DNA of 32,620 nt from an uncultured Bacilli bacterium. GTDB lineage: Bacteria > Bacillota_I > Bacilli_A > RF39 > UBA660. Shown here one piece after another: positions 9,660 through 29,593 of this stretch. Both the position numbers and the translations under genes were made by a program. The notes under the pieces were generated by a model. It was not told the DNA's origin. It made no database searches and saw only the letters and a program-made list of their open reading frames with translations. Every line of letters begins with the position of its first letter. The first letter of the stretch is position 1. The stretch covers positions 1-32,620 of the forward strand of contig CANQGF010000010.1 of the NCBI GenBank assembly GCA_947601485.1. Reading direction: 5' to 3'.

Positions 9660-9707
9660 TATTATGTAAACCAATTATTTCCCGGGAAATAATTGGTTTA
9701 CATAATA
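9660..9707. promoter_or_regulatory. Noc-binding site in a 48-bp perfect palindrome (left copy)
   Basis: The core ATTTCCCGGGAAAT (9677-9690) equals the Bacillus Noc-binding sequence as I recall it. The symmetry extends without a mismatch to 24 bp on each side, with arms that include TGTAAACCAATT and AATTGGTTTACA. The same 48 bases recur at 10627-10674. The length of the arms goes far beyond what Noc needs, so they may form a cruciform or bind a second factor. No T-run follows on the SRP side, so it does not look like an ordinary terminator. Confidence 0.85.
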
Positions 9708-9754
9708 TTTTTACAAAATTTTAAAAATTCGCATTATTTTTGTGATTTTATATA

Positions 9755-9770
9755 TGTTTCACGTGAAACA
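9755..9770. promoter_or_regulatory. parS site 1
   Basis: A perfect ParB-binding palindrome TGTTTCACGTGAAACA. The dyad symmetry extends to 32 bp (9747-9778) through TA-rich flanks that are unlike those of the other copies. Confidence 0.95.
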
Positions 9771-9891
9771 TATATAAATAAATTAAAATGTTTTTAAATG
9801 ATATAAAAAAACAAATTTTACTTTTTTTAAAAAATAAATATAAATTAATTTTTCTAATAAGTTTATAAATTAACTGTTTTTGATCGTACAA

Positions 9892-9907
9892 TGTTTCACG
9901 TGAAACA
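9892..9907. promoter_or_regulatory. parS site 2
   Basis: A perfect TGTTTCACGTGAAACA, centred 137 bp from site 1. The symmetry extends to 26 bp (9887-9912), with TACAA and TTGTA flanks. Confidence 0.95.
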
Positions 9908-10027
9908 TTGTAGTAATTTTTTACTTAAATACAATTATAAAAGGCTCAAATATTTATTTATAATGATAATTTATAAGCCAAATTAAAATATAATTTTATA
10001 TAGATAAATAATTTGAAATTTATCTTA

Positions 10028-10043
10028 TGTTTCACGTGAAACA
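10028..10043. promoter_or_regulatory. parS site 3
   Basis: A perfect TGTTTCACGTGAAACA, centred 136 bp from site 2. The symmetry extends to 24 bp (10024-10047), with CTTA and TAAG flanks. Confidence 0.95.
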
Positions 10044-10329
10044 TAAGGCTTTATTATTTAAATTGATATACAATATTAAATTTAATTTAAAAAATTTAAA
10101 TCAGTAATTATAACTAGTTAATATCATTTAAAATAAATAGCTTTATTTGAAAAGATTTGATTTTTATATTTTCTACAAGGTCATAATATATTTGAAACTA
10201 TTAAATAATATGGCTTGTTTTTTTAATTAAGTAATTATTACTTAATTATATTATGTAAAATACTATTGAAAGAGTATGATCACATGTGAAAGCACAGGCC
10301 ATGCACCAAATTAATAATAATTAATATAA

Positions 10330-10345
10330 TGTTTCACGTGAAACA
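10330..10345. promoter_or_regulatory. parS site 4
   Basis: A perfect TGTTTCACGTGAAACA, centred 302 bp from site 3. It has the longest symmetric context: 42 bp (10317-10358) without a mismatch, 13 paired bases beyond the core on each side. Confidence 0.95.
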
Positions 10346-10522
10346 TTATATTAATTATAAAAGTTAATAAAAATGATACAAAAACAAATTATCAATTAAT
10401 TAGTATTTAAAAATATAAAGAAATAATAATAAATATACAGTTTATAATTAATAATTAATAATTTTAAAATAATAAATTTATACTAAATAAAATATAATAA
10501 TTGTAATTCTAAAGATAGAGAA

Positions 10523-10538
10523 TGTTTCACGTGAAACA
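10523..10538. promoter_or_regulatory. parS site 5
   Basis: A perfect TGTTTCACGTGAAACA, centred 193 bp from site 4. Only one further base on each side is symmetric (10522-10539). Confidence 0.95.
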
Positions 10539-10626
10539 TAGAAATTATAATTAATTAAAATATTAAATTATAGATATTTAATCAAAATATATAAAAATAC
10601 AACAAAATATTAAGATTTGGTAAATA

Positions 10627-10674
10627 TATTATGTAAACCAATTATTTCCCGGGAAATAATTGGTTTACATAATA
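10627..10674. promoter_or_regulatory. Noc-binding site in a 48-bp perfect palindrome (right copy)
   Basis: It is identical over 48 bp to the copy at 9660-9707, with core ATTTCCCGGGAAAT at 10644-10657. Here the symmetry runs two bases further on each side (10625-10676). It lies just beyond the gyrA terminator, at the other edge of the parS cluster. Confidence 0.85.
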
Positions 10675-10708
10675 TAAAAAGGCACTAACTTTTTAATTAT
10701 TAGTACCT
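10674..10708 (-). terminator. Rho-independent terminator of recF-gyrB-gyrA
   Basis: On the minus strand GGTACTAA and TTAGTGCC form an 8-bp stem (one U-G wobble) followed by TTTTTAT. The left arm includes the last codons and stop of gyrA, so the terminator overlaps the gene end. It keeps gyrase transcription from entering the parS interval. Confidence 0.75.
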
Positions 10709-18133: not shown

Positions 18134-19489
18134 TTATAACTTTGATTTAATTTCTTTAATAGTATTTTCTAAAGTTTGATTATGTTGTAATTCTTCTTTA
18201 ATCTTATCACAACTAGCTACAACTGTTGAATGATCTCTTCCCCCAAATTCAAAACCAATTTTAACTAGATTTTCTTCGGTTTCACTTCGGCATAGATACA
18301 TGGCAATATGTCTTGGCCAAGCTATATTATTACTTCTTTTTTTACTTTTTAAATCATCAACTGTTATCTTATAAAAATCCGCAACTACTTTTTGAATATG
18401 CGATATAGTATTTTCTTGATAAATGTTGTTATCTATTGCATCTTTACAAGCTTCAATCGCAAAATTTAAATCGATTCTTTCTGGTGTATACAAAGCTGTA
18501 TAAACAAGTAATCTTGTAATAGTACCTTCAATATGTCTTACATCACTTGGACAACCATTTGCTATATATTCAATAACATCTTTATTAACTTTATCTTTAA
18601 TACTAGTATTAGCTAGTTTTTGTTTAATAATTTCACAACGAAGTTCAAAATCAGGTGGATGAATATCAACTGGAAGACCCCATTTAAAACGACTTCTTAA
18701 ACGTTCCTCAATCTTTTTTAAATCATCCGGAGATCGATCCGATGAGATAATAATTTGTTTATTAGCTTGATTTAAAGCTTCAAAAGTATGAAAGAACTCT
18801 TGTTGGGTCATCGCAGAATCAACAATAAATTGAATATCATCTATAATTAAAACATCAACATTACGATATTTATTTTTAAAGTTATTAGCGTCTTCAATAG
18901 AATCTTGATCTTTATCTTTTTTAAATAAATTAACATATTCTTCTCTAAAATCACTACTAGTTGTATATAAAACTCTTTTTTTAGAATGTTCCGTTATATA
19001 ATTACCAATAGCGTTCATTAAATGGGTTTTTCCAGTTCCACTTTTACCATAAATAAAGAGTGGATTACGTATTGTTCCCGGTGATTGGGCAACATTCATC
19101 GCTGAAATAAATGCTAGACGATTAGATTCCCCAACAACATAATTATCAAAATTAAGATTAGGTTTTAAATTAGTATTCCATACTATAATTTGATTTTCTT
19201 CATTATTACTTTTAGATGTTTCAATATTAGTTTTATCTTCTAATTCTTCCTCGGTATAAAATTTAAAATCATAATTAATACCAGTTAAGGAAAACATTGT
19301 ACTATCAATTAAATCTGAATAAGTATTTTTAAGTATTTGTTTATGAACAGGAAGAGGTACTTTAATAGTAATTTCTTTATCATCAATATTAACAAGTTCT
19401 AAATCATTAAACCAAGCTGTAAATGTTCCTGGACTAACTTCGCTTTCTATTTCTGATAAAAATTTCTTAAATAATTCTTGTGTTTTCAT
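18134..19489 (-). CDS. dnaA: Chromosomal replication initiator DnaA
   Basis: DnaA binds its boxes and melts the origin. The 451-aa protein has an N-terminal helicase-loading domain, a short variable linker (about residues 85-115), the AAA+ domain with Walker A GKSGTGKTH (about 150) and Walker B VLIIDDIQF (about 215), and the C-terminal box-binding domain with the signature FGGRDHSTVVASCDKI. A GAGGT site precedes the ATG. Divergent rpmH lies across the origin interval, as in most Bacillota. Confidence 0.98.
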   Translation of the reverse strand: MKTQELFKKFLSEIESEVSPGTFTAWFNDLELVNIDDKEITIKVPLPVHKQILKNTYSDLIDSTMFSLTGINYDFKFYTEEELEDKTNIETSKSNNEENQIIVWNTNLKPNLNFDNYVVGESNRLAFISAMNVAQSPGTIRNPLFIYGKSGTGKTHLMNAIGNYITEHSKKRVLYTTSSDFREEYVNLFKKDKDQDSIEDANNFKNKYRNVDVLIIDDIQFIVDSAMTQQEFFHTFEALNQANKQIIISSDRSPDDLKKIEERLRSRFKWGLPVDIHPPDFELRCEIIKQKLANTSIKDKVNKDVIEYIANGCPSDVRHIEGTITRLLVYTALYTPERIDLNFAIEACKDAIDNNIYQENTISHIQKVVADFYKITVDDLKSKKRSNNIAWPRHIAMYLCRSETEENLVKIGFEFGGRDHSTVVASCDKIKEELQHNQTLENTIKEIKSKL

Positions 19490-25305: not shown

Positions 25306-26014
25306 AGAAGAATTTATTAAAAGTATTGAAAAATTAGCTATAAATTATAATGATAATATGTTAGAAAAATTAGAGATTTATAAAGAATTTTTAAAAGAAT
25401 ATAATACTCATACTAATTTAACCGCTATTAAAGATGATGAAGGTATTTATTTAAAACATTTTTATGATTCTTTAACTATTGTTAAAGCTATTGATTTAAA
25501 CAAAGTAGATAATTTAATTGATATTGGTACGGGTGCGGGATTTCCAGGAATGGTTATTAAAATATTCTTTCCCCATATTAATGTTTATTTACTTGATTCT
25601 AACCATAAGAAAACTACATTTTTAAATGAACTTCAAACTAAATTAAATCTAAATTGTGAAATAATTAATGAAAGAATAGAAGATTATGCTAAAAATAATT
25701 TAAATAAATTTGATGTTGTTACTTCAAGAGCGGTAGCTAATTTAAGAGTATTATCTGAACTTGCTTTGCCTTTAGTAAAAGAAGAGGGATACTTTATTGC
25801 CCTTAAAGGAAATGTTGAAGAAGAAATAGAAGAAGCTAAAGATACTATTGCCATTTTAGGAGGAACAATTTATAAACAAGAAACATTTTATTTATATCGA
25901 AATGAAGGTTTAAGAAATATCCTAGTTATTCAAAAAAAGAAAAAAACATTAAGTGAAAATTTGCGCCCTTATGATAAAATTGTTAAAAAACCATTGAAAA
26001 AAAGTAATTTTTAA
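25298..26014 (+). CDS. rsmG: 16S rRNA (guanine-527-N7)-methyltransferase RsmG
   Basis: RsmG methylates G527 in the 530 loop of 16S rRNA; its loss gives low-level streptomycin resistance in other bacteria. The 238-aa protein has the family's HTNLTAI region (about residues 35-41), the SAM loop DIGTGAGFPG (about 74-83) and TSRAVANL (about 145). It closes the mnmE-mnmG-rsmG cluster. In Bacillus noc comes next; here about 2.5 kb of mobile-element remnants and an unknown gene intervene. Confidence 0.95.
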   Translation: MNKEEFIKSIEKLAINYNDNMLEKLEIYKEFLKEYNTHTNLTAIKDDEGIYLKHFYDSLTIVKAIDLNKVDNLIDIGTGAGFPGMVIKIFFPHINVYLLDSNHKKTTFLNELQTKLNLNCEIINERIEDYAKNNLNKFDVVTSRAVANLRVLSELALPLVKEEGYFIALKGNVEEEIEEAKDTIAILGGTIYKQETFYLYRNEGLRNILVIQKKKKTLSENLRPYDKIVKKPLKKSNF

Positions 26015-26028
26015 TTTTTGACTTTCAT

Positions 26029-26057
26029 ACAATGGCAATCCCTTTTCCAATGTTTTT
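26029..26057 (+). terminator. Probable terminator after rsmG
   Basis: ACAATGG (26029-26035) and CCAATGT (26047-26053) form an imperfect stem with one mismatch, followed by TTTTTT. It is weaker than the other terminators but lies where one is expected. Confidence 0.4.
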
Positions 26058-26110
26058 TCAATTTTTAATTATTCTTAATTCTCAAAGTAAAAGCAATTTT
26101 TATAAAACCA

Positions 26111-26212
26111 GTTGCATTTACTTTGAGAATAAGGGTTGCTTTTACTTTGAGAAAAACCTTATTTATAATAATTAAAATTGTTATTAGATATAATTGCCTT
26201 TACTTTGAGAAT
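26111..26212 (+). repeat. Three extra direct copies of the IS end motif (left side)
   Basis: Copies of the motif TTGCTTTTACTTTGAGAAT occur at 26111-26130 (one base missing), 26135-26153 and 26194-26212, all in the orientation of the right end. They lie just inside the left end of the element. Confidence 0.75.
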
Positions 26213-26241
26213 TTGTATAATACATCTCATTCTTTATACTA

Positions 26242-26350
26242 AAAGTTCTTTGATTCTTTCTTTCAAGAAAGAAGGCCTAACCGGCGAGGTTGCTATTTAG
26301 CCTTTCCCGGCTTCTTTGATTACTTTCTTTTCCGTAAAAGAAAGTAATGC
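26242..26350 (+). repeat. Paired hairpin modules of unlike composition
   Basis: Two related units each start TTCTTTGATT. The first folds as TTCTTTC/GAAAGAA (26254-26260 with 26267-26273) and the second as a perfect 12-bp stem with loop CCGT (26320-26331 with 26336-26347). Between them is a GC-richer stretch with CCGGCGAGG and CCTTTCCCGG that could also pair. It is not coding. It looks like a REP-type or structured-RNA module carried by the element; I do not recognise a named family. Confidence 0.55.
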
Positions 26351-26412
26351 CCGTCTGGCAAGACATTATTACTTTATGTTAAAATATCATCTCATATGGA
26401 GGTGATGTTTTT

Positions 26413-26460
26413 ATGTCTTATAAAAAAGAATACTATTTATCTTTTCAAGCTCTTAAATAG
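26413..26460 (+). CDS. Possible 15-aa leader peptide
   Basis: A strong ribosome-binding site (GGAGGTGATG, 26398-26407) precedes an ATG that opens only MSYKKEYYLSFQALK. The codons overlap a perfect 10-bp inverted repeat (26429-26438 with 26455-26464) and a second, 14-bp hairpin follows. The pattern resembles a leader peptide with attenuator before the element's genes, or simply the stump of a gene cut by a deletion. Confidence 0.35.
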   Translation: MSYKKEYYLSFQALK

Positions 26461-26472
26461 TATTCACAAACA

Positions 26473-26531
26473 AATCTATCTAATTAATAGACAAACTTAT
26501 TTTATCACATTCCTTTTTAATTAGATAGATG
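26473..26531 (+). other. 14-bp hairpin upstream of the element's first gene
   Basis: ATCTATCTAATTAA (26474-26487) pairs with TTAATTAGATAGAT (26518-26531) across a loop of 30 bases. It lies about 36 bp before the 89-aa ORF. It lacks a T-run directly after the stem, so a role in regulating translation or transposition is as likely as termination. The rest of 26015-26566 holds the terminator, repeats and modules listed separately. Confidence 0.5.
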
Positions 26532-26566
26532 TAAATTTTAATAGTTAAAAAGGAGGATTTTATTTT

Positions 26567-26836
26567 ATGAATAACTATTATGAATTTAAATATAACGAAG
26601 ATAGAGAATCTTTTGAATATTTTAATTCTCTACCTATTAATGTTTTAAAAAATATTCTAAATGAAAATTTTAATTATATTGAAACTAGCTTAATTAATTA
26701 TGCTAATGTATTTAAAGAGATATTTGAAAGTAAAGATTATGATGAGTTTTATTATACTTGTTTATCATTAGTTGAAGAGTTAAATGATATTAAAATTATA
26801 ATTAATATTTTAAAGGATAGAGATAAAAATGAGTAA
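26567..26836 (+). CDS. Unknown 89-aa protein, partner of the IS30-like transposase
   Basis: I do not recognise this family. The acidic, Asn- and Tyr-rich protein appears all-helical (for example LPINVLKNILNENFNYIETS and a C-terminal LNDIKIIINILKDRD). There is no signal or membrane segment. GGAGG stands 10 bases before the ATG. Its last codons overlap the transposase start by 8 bp (ATGAGTAA), so the two are translated together. This suggests a transposition regulator or accessory protein, which is inferred from position only. Confidence 0.6.
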   Translation: MNNYYEFKYNEDRESFEYFNSLPINVLKNILNENFNYIETSLINYANVFKEIFESKDYDEFYYTCLSLVEELNDIKIIINILKDRDKNE

Positions 26837-27485
26837 AGGTCATTTATCTTATTCCGATAGATTAGCTATTGAAAATATGCTTAATGAAGGTCATAATGAT
26901 GCACCAGTCTTATTAACTTTGGAAATTGTTCCGATTAACTTTTTATTTATCTTTAAAATTGATAGTCAAACTAAAGATGAGGTTATTAAAAAAATAACTT
27001 ATTTTAAAGATTTAATTGGTAATGAAACCTTTGATAGACTCACGGAAATATTGTTAACGGATAATGGGAAAGAATTTTATATTGGTGAAGAAGCTTTAAC
27101 TCTTTCTTCTAATATTCATTTATTTTATTGTCATCCTTATTCTTCCTACGAAAAAGGTTCCATTGAAAATAATCATGAACTTATTAGAAGAATTATTCCT
27201 AAAGGTGTTTCTTTAAAGCCATATACGCAAAATGAACTTAATTTACTTTGTTCTCATATTAATAGTTTATTTAGAAAAAAATTAGATGGTAAATGTCCTT
27301 TTGATTTAATTGAACAATATATTCCTTTAGATAAAATTAAAAAATTATGTTTATCTAAAATTAATCCTTTAGATGTGTGTTTAATACCTGAATTACTTGG
27401 TGATAAAAACATCAATAATATTAAGAAATATTTAGATAAAAATGATATCAAAAAAGCTAACATTTCTTTTATTAAAAATGACTGA
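26829..27485 (+). pseudogene. IS30-family transposase with large internal in-frame deletion
   Basis: The 218-aa frame begins with the IS30-type helix-turn-helix start (GHLSYSDRLAIENMLNEG, residues 4-21) and jumps at about residue 23 into the catalytic domain (DAPVLLTLE). The second catalytic Asp is D78 in LLTDNGKEF and the Glu is E113 in EKGSIENNHELIRR, a spacing of 34 residues that fits IS30. The first catalytic Asp and the rest of the DNA-binding domain, about 120 residues by family length, are missing. It cannot be an active DDE enzyme but could still make a truncated protein. The frame ends with TGA just inside the right inverted repeat. Confidence 0.85.
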
Positions 27486-27491
27486 TTTAAA

Positions 27492-27618
27492 ATTGCTTTT
27501 ACTTTGAGAATAGCCAAAAATTGTTAAAAAAATCGGTATACTTTTTAACCGATTTTTTAGTTGCTTTTACTTTTGTCTTTTAATTACTAAATTTGCTGGT
27601 TGCTTTTACTTTGAGAAT
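27492..27618 (+). repeat. IS end motif copies on the right side
   Basis: TTGCTTTTACTTTGAGAAT occurs at 27493-27511 (the element's right end) and at 27600-27618. A degenerate copy that stops after TTTACTTTTG lies at 27560-27575. All three have the same orientation and are spaced about 65 and 40 bp apart. Confidence 0.75.
27527..27558. terminator. Bidirectional terminator beyond the element
   Basis: AAAAAATCGGT (27527-27537) and ACCGATTTTTT (27548-27558) form a perfect 11-bp stem with a 10-base loop and a T-run. It lies between two copies of the IS end motif and would stop transcription leaving the transposase gene. Confidence 0.8.
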
Positions 27619-27668
27619 TCACCAATTTTTAATTATCAACCTATTTGGTGTCAATGATTATAAAAGAT

Positions 27669-27698
27669 TTGAAATGTATACTGTCTATTTGTTATAAT
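27669..27698 (+). promoter_or_regulatory. Promoter of the 234-aa unknown gene
   Basis: TTGAAA (27669-27674) and a consensus TATAAT (27693-27698) are 18 bases apart, about 38 bp before the ATG. Confidence 0.6.
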
Positions 27699-27735
27699 AA
27701 AAGCATAAGTAATTTTTATATTATGGAGGTTTTAG

Positions 27736-28440
27736 ATGGATAAAGCAAAAAGAATTAGTAACATGTTAGCACAAAGATTAACTTGGTATGCTGAAGCTAA
27801 TTGTGATATTACGCAGATTAAAGATCCGAATATAATGCGGAAGTTTGAAGAATTACAACGAAAAAATGAATTTATAATTTTTTCTTTTTTAAGTAAGATT
27901 TTTCTTGATGATACGGTAAAAGAAGGAATGATAAGTAGAGGCAACAGTGGTACTTATACATCATTGTTTAATTTTACGAAAGAGAAAGATATTGCTTTAG
28001 GATTTCATAGTTACGCAACATCATCATTAGTAATAGGGGCTGATATATGCGTCAAAAATGGTGATAGTTGGAATGATATTTTTGCTGTTGAAACTAAGCC
28101 AATAGACCCTAATGTACCAATGCTAAGATATGTAAAAAATCCTCCGATAAGTGAAGATATGACTTTAATGGATTGTTATGTTAAATTTTTAATTCCTTAT
28201 AAAGAAGGCTATTTATATTTTTCAAATGAGAACGATTTAAATACTGTTATAGCAACGTATATTGAAGACAAAGATTTAAAAGCTAGTTTAATGGAAGTGA
28301 AATTTTATATTAGAGATAATGGTATAGAAGGAAAATCTGTTGATTTAAACGATATGACAGTTGGTGAAATATTTAATTTATTATTATCTAAAAATTATGA
28401 AATTTTATATGATAAAGTAAATAATATGAGTTTAAAATAA
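27736..28440 (+). CDS. Unknown 234-aa cytoplasmic protein
   Basis: I do not recognise this protein. It is soluble by composition, with no signal or membrane segment. A helical N-terminal third (RISNMLAQRLTWYAEAN, then FEELQRKNEFIIFSFLSKIF) is followed by a region rich in beta-type segments and aromatic residues (ALGFHSYATSSLVIGADICV; FAVETKPIDPNVPML; CYVKFLIPYKEGYLYFSNEN) and a helical end. It has its own promoter, a GGAGGT site and a terminator, so it is a monocistronic unit. It stands between the IS remnant and noc, a slot that is empty in Bacillus, and may be acquired DNA. Confidence 0.75.
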   Translation: MDKAKRISNMLAQRLTWYAEANCDITQIKDPNIMRKFEELQRKNEFIIFSFLSKIFLDDTVKEGMISRGNSGTYTSLFNFTKEKDIALGFHSYATSSLVIGADICVKNGDSWNDIFAVETKPIDPNVPMLRYVKNPPISEDMTLMDCYVKFLIPYKEGYLYFSNENDLNTVIATYIEDKDLKASLMEVKFYIRDNGIEGKSVDLNDMTVGEIFNLLLSKNYEILYDKVNNMSLK

Positions 28441-28460
28441 ACTTAAGAAATAAGTTTTTT
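28439..28460 (+). terminator. Terminator of the 234-aa gene
   Basis: AAACTTA (28439-28445) pairs with TAAGTTT (28451-28457) around a 5-base loop and runs into Ts. It overlaps the stop codon of the gene. Confidence 0.7.
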
Positions 28461-28469
28461 TAAAAGCTC

Positions 28470-28498
28470 TTGCAAAAAGGCTTTAAATAAGATAGAAT
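28470..28498 (+). promoter_or_regulatory. Promoter of noc
   Basis: TTGCAA (28470-28475) and TAGAAT (28493-28498) are separated by 17 bases, 39 bp before the chosen GTG start. Confidence 0.55.
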
Positions 28499-28537
28499 TA
28501 ATAGGTAAGAATAAAAGTAGTGAAGGGGTCTGATTTT

Positions 28538-29593
28538 GTGAATCCAAGAATGGAAACTACCGGACAAGTTTTAAATATACCGATTGAAGACATTATTCCT
28601 AACCGTTTTCAACCAAGACTTTCATTTGATGAAGAAGGATTAAAGGAACTTGCATCTTCAATTAAAGAACATGGGATTATTCAACCCCTAGTTTTAAGAC
28701 GCCTTAATGATAAATATGAAATAATTGCTGGTGAAAGACGTTATAAAGCCGCTAAAATGGCAGGTCTTGCAAGTGTACCTGGTATTATTGCTGAAATGGA
28801 TGATAAAAGAAGTGCTGAAGTAGCTATTGTTGAAAATGTTCAAAGAAGAGATTTAACTTCTATTGAAGAAGCTAAATCTTATAAAGCTTTACTTGATAAA
28901 GGTTATTTAACCCAAGAAGAACTTGCTAAAAAGATGGGATTAAGTCAATCTGCTGTAGCTAATAAATTACGTTTATTATCATTAGCACCTGCAGTGCAAG
29001 ATGCTTTAATGGAAGGAAAAATATCTGAAAGGCATGCAAGAAGTCTTCTTACCCTAGATGATTTAACTAGCCAAGAAAAATGGCTTGATGTAATTCTTAA
29101 TGAAAGACTTACGGTTAAAGAACTTGATCGAAGATTAAGTAAGGAAAAAGCAAGTATGAAAGAAAATGATAGTAATAATGATATTCCAAAGATCAATTTA
29201 GATAATGAACTTAAAATATCTAATGAAGAGAATGATGAACAAATTTATGATGATGACAATAATAAAATTTCCTTCTTCGATTATATTACTAAACAATTAA
29301 ATGCTACAATGAATAATATTAATGATGATGAAGATAATAATATTATTGGTTCAAATCCGATAAAAGAAGATACAAATCCTTTTAATAATGCTTTAGAAAA
29401 TGCTGTAGATTCTTCCGATATTGAATTATTAGATTTTGAAATGCCAAGCAAAGAAACTAAAGATATGAATAAAGTTAATACTTTAATAGATGAATTAGTT
29501 AATAATTTAAAGAATGATAATTATACAGTCATTATGAATAAAGATGATAATGATAATACAGTGAAGTTTGAAATAACTGTTAATAAAGGTTAA
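28538..29593 (+). CDS. noc: ParB-family nucleoid occlusion protein Noc-like
   Basis: Noc is a CTP-dependent DNA clamp that keeps the division ring off the nucleoid. This 351-aa protein has the ParB CTP-binding motifs (GERRYKAAKMAG, about residues 67-78; ENVQRRDLTSIEEA, about 102-115) and the helix-turn-helix SQSAVANKLRLL. At the four positions that separate Noc from ParB (recalled Noc set Q, K, K, R) it reads Q, K, S, R. About 100 acidic, Asn-rich residues link the DNA-binding region to the C-terminal dimer domain, longer than in Bacillus. The GTG at 28538 has AGGGG 9 bases upstream; the GTG at 28520 has none. Neither start gives the N-terminal amphipathic membrane helix of Bacillus Noc. It could instead be the organism's only ParB. 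Confidence 0.85.
   Translation: MNPRMETTGQVLNIPIEDIIPNRFQPRLSFDEEGLKELASSIKEHGIIQPLVLRRLNDKYEIIAGERRYKAAKMAGLASVPGIIAEMDDKRSAEVAIVENVQRRDLTSIEEAKSYKALLDKGYLTQEELAKKMGLSQSAVANKLRLLSLAPAVQDALMEGKISERHARSLLTLDDLTSQEKWLDVILNERLTVKELDRRLSKEKASMKENDSNNDIPKINLDNELKISNEENDEQIYDDDNNKISFFDYITKQLNATMNNINDDEDNNIIGSNPIKEDTNPFNNALENAVDSSDIELLDFEMPSKETKDMNKVNTLIDELVNNLKNDNYTVIMNKDDNDNTVKFEITVNKG

Follow-up and report, generated by a model that had tools for sequence, protein, structure and literature searches.

The gene at positions 28538-29593 of the window (the whole 32,620-nucleotide stretch analysed here, from an uncultured Bacilli bacterium) encodes a Noc-clade ParB-family protein. Our best reading is that it belongs to a Noc lineage in which the N-terminal helix is gone and the binding sites (NBS) are confined to the origin region, a reading that we find more interesting than the dual binding of parS and NBS put forward in the original prediction for this protein. 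In the current view, Noc is anchored to the membrane and blocks cell division along the whole chromosome. These parts of Noc come apart in a lineage that has retained the DNA specificity but has its sites confined to the origin and no helix.

The genome to which the window belongs, as contig C10, amounts to 1.37 Mb in 91 contigs and is 94.7% complete; its nearest named relatives are uncultured Bacilli from metagenomes of animal gut and other sources. The Noc family studied is that of gut Bacilli with genomes of ~1 Mb; it comprises 141 genomes, 38 of them in the window's genus, and most are fragmented metagenome assemblies.

A Noc-clade protein and a separate ParB

The domains and residues of the protein that matter for the argument are the following.

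28538-29593, + strand: noc-type gene, 351 residues, with ParB_N, HTH_ParB, a disordered acidic linker and a C-terminal dimer-type domain (family searches, PDB scores, tree, model)
28565-28846, + strand: N-terminal domain, residues 10-103, putatively CTP-binding, motifs GERR and ENVQR (PF02195, 8.6e-34)
28850-29149, + strand: HTH DNA-binding domain, residues 105-204 (PF17762, 2.2e-31)
28946-28948, + strand: specificity residue Q137 (position 173), NBS type (alignment position)
28964-28966, + strand: specificity residue K143 (position 179), permissive lysine (alignment position)
28979-28981, + strand: specificity residue S148 (position 184), ordinary within the family (alignment position)
29030-29032, + strand: specificity residue R165 (position 201), NBS type (alignment position)
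29156-29464, + strand: acidic, mostly disordered linker, about residues 207-309 (pLDDT <50 at 214-245 and 258-303; composition)
29267-29311, + strand: motif M1, ISFFDYITKQLNATM, residues 244-258, a degenerate copy of [KRT]FFN[FY]LE (family comparison; modelled helix at 246-258, low confidence)
29417-29446, + strand: motif M2, DIELLDFEMP, residues 294-303 (family comparison)
29465-29587, + strand: C-terminal dimer-type domain, residues 310-350 (helix-strand-strand, pLDDT ~86-91 over 311-350)

The frame starts with GTG and has an AAGGGG stretch upstream of the start. Its best match is the NCBIfam Noc model TIGR04285, at 272.4 bits and thus under the curated cut-off of 315, and against PDB sequences it scores 189.6 bits to Noc versus 171.5 to Spo0J. 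A quick tree without bootstrap (73 rows, sampling roughly one in two of the Nocs and ParBs and adding some named extras, with several outgroup rows on long branches) puts 48 family Nocs in one group (SH-aLRT 98), on a Noc side (SH-aLRT 95) that includes the Nocs of B. subtilis and Geobacillus, and all 20 ParBs on the opposite side. The family counts given below refer to 79 distinct Nocs (83 minus four duplicates); Noc-like proteins without PN[RQ]FQPR (L092-L095) were left out of this set, and proteins of three of these loci, or their relatives, were used in the tree as outgroups only. The motifs G65-E66-R67-R68 and E99-N100-x-Q102-R103 are present in 79/79, and the window Noc would bind CTP, judging from its family membership. 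AlphaFold2 models of this protein and of a relative (L044) have both N-terminal domains and the C-terminal domain folded and the linker disordered, and the predicted DNA-binding domain superposes at 1.3-1.8 A on 6y93, the structure of a Noc DNA-binding domain with NBS.

At the four positions that set specificity (173, 179, 184 and 201 in Caulobacter ParB numbering), the residues Q, K, S and R first read for this protein are indeed found. Lysine 184 is absent, and so are the R173 and G201 of parS-type ParB, with Q and R in their place. Q173 and R201 occur in 79/79 family Nocs and K179 in 76/79; the complete reads are QKNR (29), QKSR (25), QKTR (17), QKGR and QTDR (two each) and, in single Nocs, QKAR, QKKR, QKQR and QTNR. 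Serine, asparagine or threonine at 184 is hence usual, since 71 of the 79 read QK[SNT]R. The family departs here from the ~400 Nocs of a published survey, which almost invariably have lysine at 179 and 184 (PMC7383237), lysine not being the rule at its position 184. The same study reports that a single lysine, at 179 or 184, is all that Q173 and R201 require for NBS-specific reading, that QTAG and QTAR variants with lysine at neither position fail, and that dual-specificity variants carry mostly T or S at 201 (Jalal 2020, PMC7383237). Given the QKSR read and this lysine rule, the window Noc is predicted to be NBS-specific, binding NBS only. Three Nocs of the family (L087, L090 and L091) read QTNR or QTDR, with lysine at neither 179 nor 184. 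They are predicted to be non-functional by the published rule, which leaves them unaccounted for, and under it they should bind poorly or in some other way.

A separate parA-parB pair was looked for elsewhere in the genome and found on contig 11. As stated originally, no further ParB-family gene lies inside the window. The genome's own ParB gene (L002:1300-2187, - strand) adjoins a parA-type gene and is the only other HTH_ParB match in the genome. Its product carries an N-terminal GKGL-type motif, presumably the motif by which ParB contacts ParA; the window Noc has neither this motif nor a neighbouring parA. The PDB scores of this ParB are the opposite of those of the window Noc (191 to Spo0J versus 150.5 to Noc). 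Its four positions read R, L, N, S, i.e. with serine at 201, and S201 recurs in 10 of the 25 family ParBs read at this position (25 of 30 loci, one being not found and four having no anchor string). Glycine 201 has been called absolutely conserved in ParB (PMC7383237).

These observations bear directly on the idea of a dual-specificity Noc serving parS as well as NBS. Three of its four specificity residues are Noc-type and one is neither, and parS and NBS lie side by side in the window, both points in favour of the idea. Yet NBS specificity takes no more than a single lysine at either 179 or 184, so that K179 with R201 is the NBS-specific combination under the published rule, the reported dual variants mostly have T or S where this protein has arginine (PMC7383237), and a parA-parB pair is encoded elsewhere in the genome. 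We thus find the dual binding unsupported and have dropped it, in view of the rule, of the separate pair and of the family spread at position 184; we would be very surprised if it held. If there is any dual binder here, the ParB, with R, L, N, S, is more likely to be it than the Noc, because it has S201, the position where published dual variants mostly have T or S.

NBS, parS and XerD-type arms in the origin block

The origin block, mfd-dnaX-tadA-gyrAB-recF-dnaN-dnaA-yidC-mnmEG-rsmG-noc, is 29.4 kb long in the window. The names mfd, pth, ricT, recR, dnaX, tadA, mnmE, mnmG, rsmG, rnpA and yidC come from family searches, and gyrA, gyrB, recF, dnaN, dnaA and jag from size and gene order only. 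Both site types are present in the genome, as had been claimed, with five exact parS and two exact NBS in the window.

9660-9707, no strand: composite site 1, a 48-bp perfect palindrome with NBS core 9676-9691 and XerD-type half-sites 9662-9674 and 9693-9705 (site and palindrome search, genus dif comparison)
9755-9770, no strand: parS 1 (exact 16-mer)
9892-9907, no strand: parS 2 (exact 16-mer)
10028-10043, no strand: parS 3 (exact 16-mer)
10330-10345, no strand: parS 4 (exact 16-mer)
10523-10538, no strand: parS 5 (exact 16-mer)
10625-10676, no strand: composite site 2, a 52-bp perfect palindrome with NBS core 10643-10658 and XerD-type half-sites 10629-10641 and 10660-10672 (site and palindrome search, genus dif comparison)
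18134-19489, - strand: dnaA, origin landmark (named by its place in the gene order, without a family search)

The parS array lies between tadA and gyrA and is bracketed by the NBS at 9676 and 10643. Among 100 shuffles, none reaches five parS matches at <=3 mismatches and two reach two NBS matches at <=3 mismatches, both NBS of the window being exact 16-mers. Exact parS 12-mers are found genome-wide in this array only. The NBS 12-mer core at <=1 mismatch occurs in three places of the genome versus five for the control, and a one-mismatch NBS on contig 9, with no palindrome and no arm, was put down to chance. Window parS are also embedded in perfect palindromes, 24-42 bp long, whose arms are unrelated to one another (9747-9778, 9887-9912, 10024-10047, 10317-10358); over 68 parS in genus loci, the extension past the 14-mer reaches 14 base pairs per side, far above the chance level of ~0.35 per pair. 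At the other end of the block, rsmG and noc adjoin in relatives, as presumably in Bacillus too, and parA-parB comes next in some relatives. The rsmG-noc interval of the window (26014-28538) holds extra ORFs, with an IS30-type transposase fragment at 26829-27485 and a 234-residue ORF at 27736-28440 that has no Pfam or NCBIfam match.

The exact NBS 14-mer is present in 116 of the 141 family genomes (0-20 per genome, 25 genomes having none) and the exact parS 14-mer in 94, and a reversed-pattern control gave zero matches in every family genome. Of 216 genomes of the class that lie outside the family, nine have an exact NBS. Families f17 (two genomes) and f19 (one) have NBS too, and the sites of G171 and G347 lie near noc or gyrA. 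Within the genus, 36 of the 38 genomes have NBS at <=1 mismatch, with 1-7 sites in each genome that has any.

To place the sites, we fetched up to 20 kb around them in 46 family genomes, which are those with places listed by the search and not a random draw, and aligned the window's proteins. NBS are confined almost wholly to the origin block in the family: 116 of the 119 located exact NBS fall within fetched stretches that include two or more origin-block genes (120 sites in 46 genomes, the site of G095 being not located), bearing in mind that an exact-match search misses degenerate NBS and that scattered weak sites may exist (the window's own genome was checked at one mismatch). The three sites outside this rule are G015:C1:104579, G140:C42:2141, which is on a 10-kb contig, and G004:C38:7285, which is on the noc-parAB contig, beyond parB. 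NBS and parS are often close, since 40 of the 107 counted NBS, in 23 of the 46 genomes, lie within 1.5 kb of parS. A fixed parS-NBS spacing was considered and dropped. One locus (L168, G110:C1:48477-49749) has four parS-NBS units, each with a start-to-start spacing of 27-28 bp, and the spacing differs elsewhere.

Both NBS of the window are flanked by arms on each side. The arm reads TTATGT[ACT]AAC and then CCAATT, or a sequence close to this, and stands beside 38 of the 63 distinct NBS in the genus loci compared (arms in loci L228-L239, L256, L266 and L282); its distance to the core is constant in all 46 arms. Eight sites are two-sided, as both are in the window, and in most relatives having any arms these are one-sided. 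The palindromes at the window's NBS exist because two arms flank a symmetric core; as most armed NBS of the genus are one-sided, the extended palindrome was dropped as an independent NBS signal. In 22 origin regions of the genus, arms are found on 34 of the 62 NBS within 1.5 kb of parS versus 0 of the 12 that are farther, and in 12 of the 22 genomes; another set of 12 arm-bearing genomes, from the genus loci, shares 10 with these, the union being 14. At <=1 mismatch, the half-site occurs 41 times beside NBS and six times elsewhere in 428,625 bases of genus regions. Since arms are found on 0 of 123 NBS in the origin regions of other genera, they are a derived, genus-level feature.

The missing helix and the acidic linker

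An N-terminal amphipathic helix is reported for every Noc examined by Adams 2015 (PMC4331003), and the membrane helix of Noc has been tied to CTP (Jalal 2021, PMC8429893). The window Noc, as expected from the first reading of its sequence, has no helix of the Bacillus type. Only 11 further in-frame codons lie upstream of its start, so that there is no room for such a helix to have gone undetected. Across the family, PNRFQPR is preceded by 14-21 residues, counted from the chosen start, in 79/79 Nocs, and the open frame upstream of PNRFQPR spans 16-31 residues in 76/79, the exceptions being L096, L038 and L039, this last the long one with 60 residues. With starts chosen by script and sequences read by eye, without a helix predictor, none of the 79 has an N-terminal helix in the usual place, and the Noc-like outgroup proteins L093 and L095 likewise start without an obvious one.

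The long acidic linker before the dimer domain is there as described, but not the "about 100 acidic residues" attributed to it: the linker has ~106 residues in all, 27 of them D/E and nine K/R. In the 79 family Nocs, linkers range from 84 to 312 residues and from -9 to -59 in net charge. Two motifs recur in them. FF[ND] is found in 65/79 linkers and the strict form [KRT]FFN[FYNL] in 59/79 (shuffle mean 0.085, maximum 1/79 over 200 shuffles); the M2-type pattern occurs in 27/79 (shuffle mean 0.745, maximum 4). The M1 of the window fits the loose form only and misses the strict pattern, and its M2 is good. FF[ND] is not essential in all members, because 14/79 linkers are without it. M1 is modelled as a helix at pLDDT ~50 in both the window Noc and L044 (AlphaFold2), its median hydrophobic moment stands at the 91st percentile of linker windows (65 sequences), and its flanks are acidic in most family members. 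M1 is similar to the R7-F8-F9 core of the B. subtilis helix, a likeness that may be due to convergence or to chance. In B. subtilis, the changes F5A, F8A and F9A each abolish Noc function (PMC4331003). An acidic extension placed after the C-terminal domain rather than before it is seen in a Noc of family f17 (L225, a 681-residue frame), which also contains the motif ISFFDNL and ends in GFWNLFK.

It had further been suggested that the protein acts by another route than Bacillus Noc. This is plausible, and is supported indirectly by the absence of the helix, by the conserved linker motif and by the confinement of NBS to the origin.

Comparison with known systems and possible roles

The window Noc has in common with the Nocs of B. 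subtilis and Geobacillus (TIGR04285; PDB 7ol9, 7nfu, 7ng0, 6y93) the clade, the domain order, Q173, K179 and R201, and the NBS sequence. It differs from them by lacking the N-terminal helix and K184, by scoring under the family cut-off and by having a long acidic linker, with FF motifs typical of its family. Whereas NBS are widely spread in Bacillus and Staphylococcus, and a typical Noc has them over much of the chromosome except the terminus, here they are found almost only in the origin block, often interleaved with parS. The likeness to S. aureus Noc lies in the NBS core, in origin-biased sites and in a possible action through protein contacts. S. aureus Noc is reported to have 41 loci, of which a single one lies outside the origin-proximal half, and to act on replication initiation (PMC5540599); genomes of the genus that have any NBS, in contrast, have 1-7, nearly all in a block of ~30 kb. 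The fold, the CTP motifs and the centromere region are shared with ParB/Spo0J and parS, from which the window Noc is set apart by Q/R rather than R/G at two base-contacting positions and by the presence of a separate ParB in the genome.

We think it probable that the window Noc acts locally at the origin, as a clamp loaded at NBS only. Noc would load at the handful of NBS situated within the parS centromere and oriC or adjoining them, and CTP would close it into a sliding clamp. It would then spread a few kilobases, in the origin region only, over a stretch that takes in the centromere and, in the case of many NBS, the surroundings of oriC; the spreading reported for S. aureus Noc is 8-10 kb (PMC5540599). 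The short hydrophobic motifs of the linker would link the origin to the membrane, to the divisome or to a replication factor, and the outcome would be origin positioning, a local division block or replication control, not chromosome-wide nucleoid occlusion. By analogy with the condensates of B. subtilis Noc, which are reported to recruit FtsZ (PMC9606368), FtsZ-recruiting condensates are a possible further route for an acidic disordered linker.

Other roles can be envisaged for this protein. It might be an ordinary Noc whose M1 is a relocated membrane-targeting amphipathic helix, with division being blocked over the origin region. The M1 core [KR]FFN[FY]L does resemble R7-F8-F9 of the B. subtilis helix, its hydrophobic moment is high (91st percentile) and it is helical in both models, but its flanks are acidic in most members where those of the Bacillus helix are basic, model confidence at M1 is ~50 and a protein-binding motif accounts for the same data; this leaves the relocated helix rather doubtful. 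A regulator of replication initiation, acting on DnaA through species-specific contacts as S. aureus Noc might, would fit with NBS that surround dnaA and gyrA, and S. aureus Noc is reported to restrain initiation, with the proposal that it depends on contacts with unknown partners (PMC5540599). However, no recurring NBS position was seen at dnaA itself, a single site of G044 being located between rnpA and dnaA, and the analogy is partial, since S. aureus sites extend over half the chromosome. We hold such a regulator to be unlikely. Finally, the few NBS, the small genomes and linkers varying between 84 and 312 residues might be those of a relic, a Noc losing its role in reduced genomes while its linker drifts. 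This is at odds with main DNA-binding and CTP motif residues that are invariant in 79/79, with the NBS kept in 36/38 genus genomes and with linker motifs conserved far above shuffles, and it appears improbable to us.

The conserved linker motif is a candidate for the partner contact that the work on S. aureus could not find. The window also offers a natural case of ParB, Noc and possibly XerD sites within one short element. A dif-like place is found in 35 of the 38 genus genomes, and a second one in a few (G383, G393, G398), with a pattern fitted to the genus, i.e. built from two best matches of a B. subtilis-like pattern that itself mostly failed. The right half of the genus dif reads TTATGT[AT]AACCA[AT] in 30 loci, 28 of which end in AA, and the NBS arm agrees with this XerD half over 13 positions, including the same variable base. 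From this likeness the arm is a putative XerD-binding site. It differs from dif in being a half-site only, located at the origin and fused to NBS, whereas the reported unloading of SMC by XerD takes place at the terminus (Karaboja 2021 as cited in PMC12322038). One might tentatively speculate that in this genus, where the composite sites bracket the parS array or are scattered through it, Noc and XerD sit together at the centromere and set up a boundary, open to switching, for the SMC that ParB loads, or else an origin tether, with the linker motif of Noc replacing the helix, although we would not bet on it. If true, a single element at the origin would join Noc, ParB, XerD and SMC. We found no report of XerD-NBS sites or of an origin-confined Noc in the open-access literature searched. 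At one site, in G398, a dif-like left half precedes the arm.
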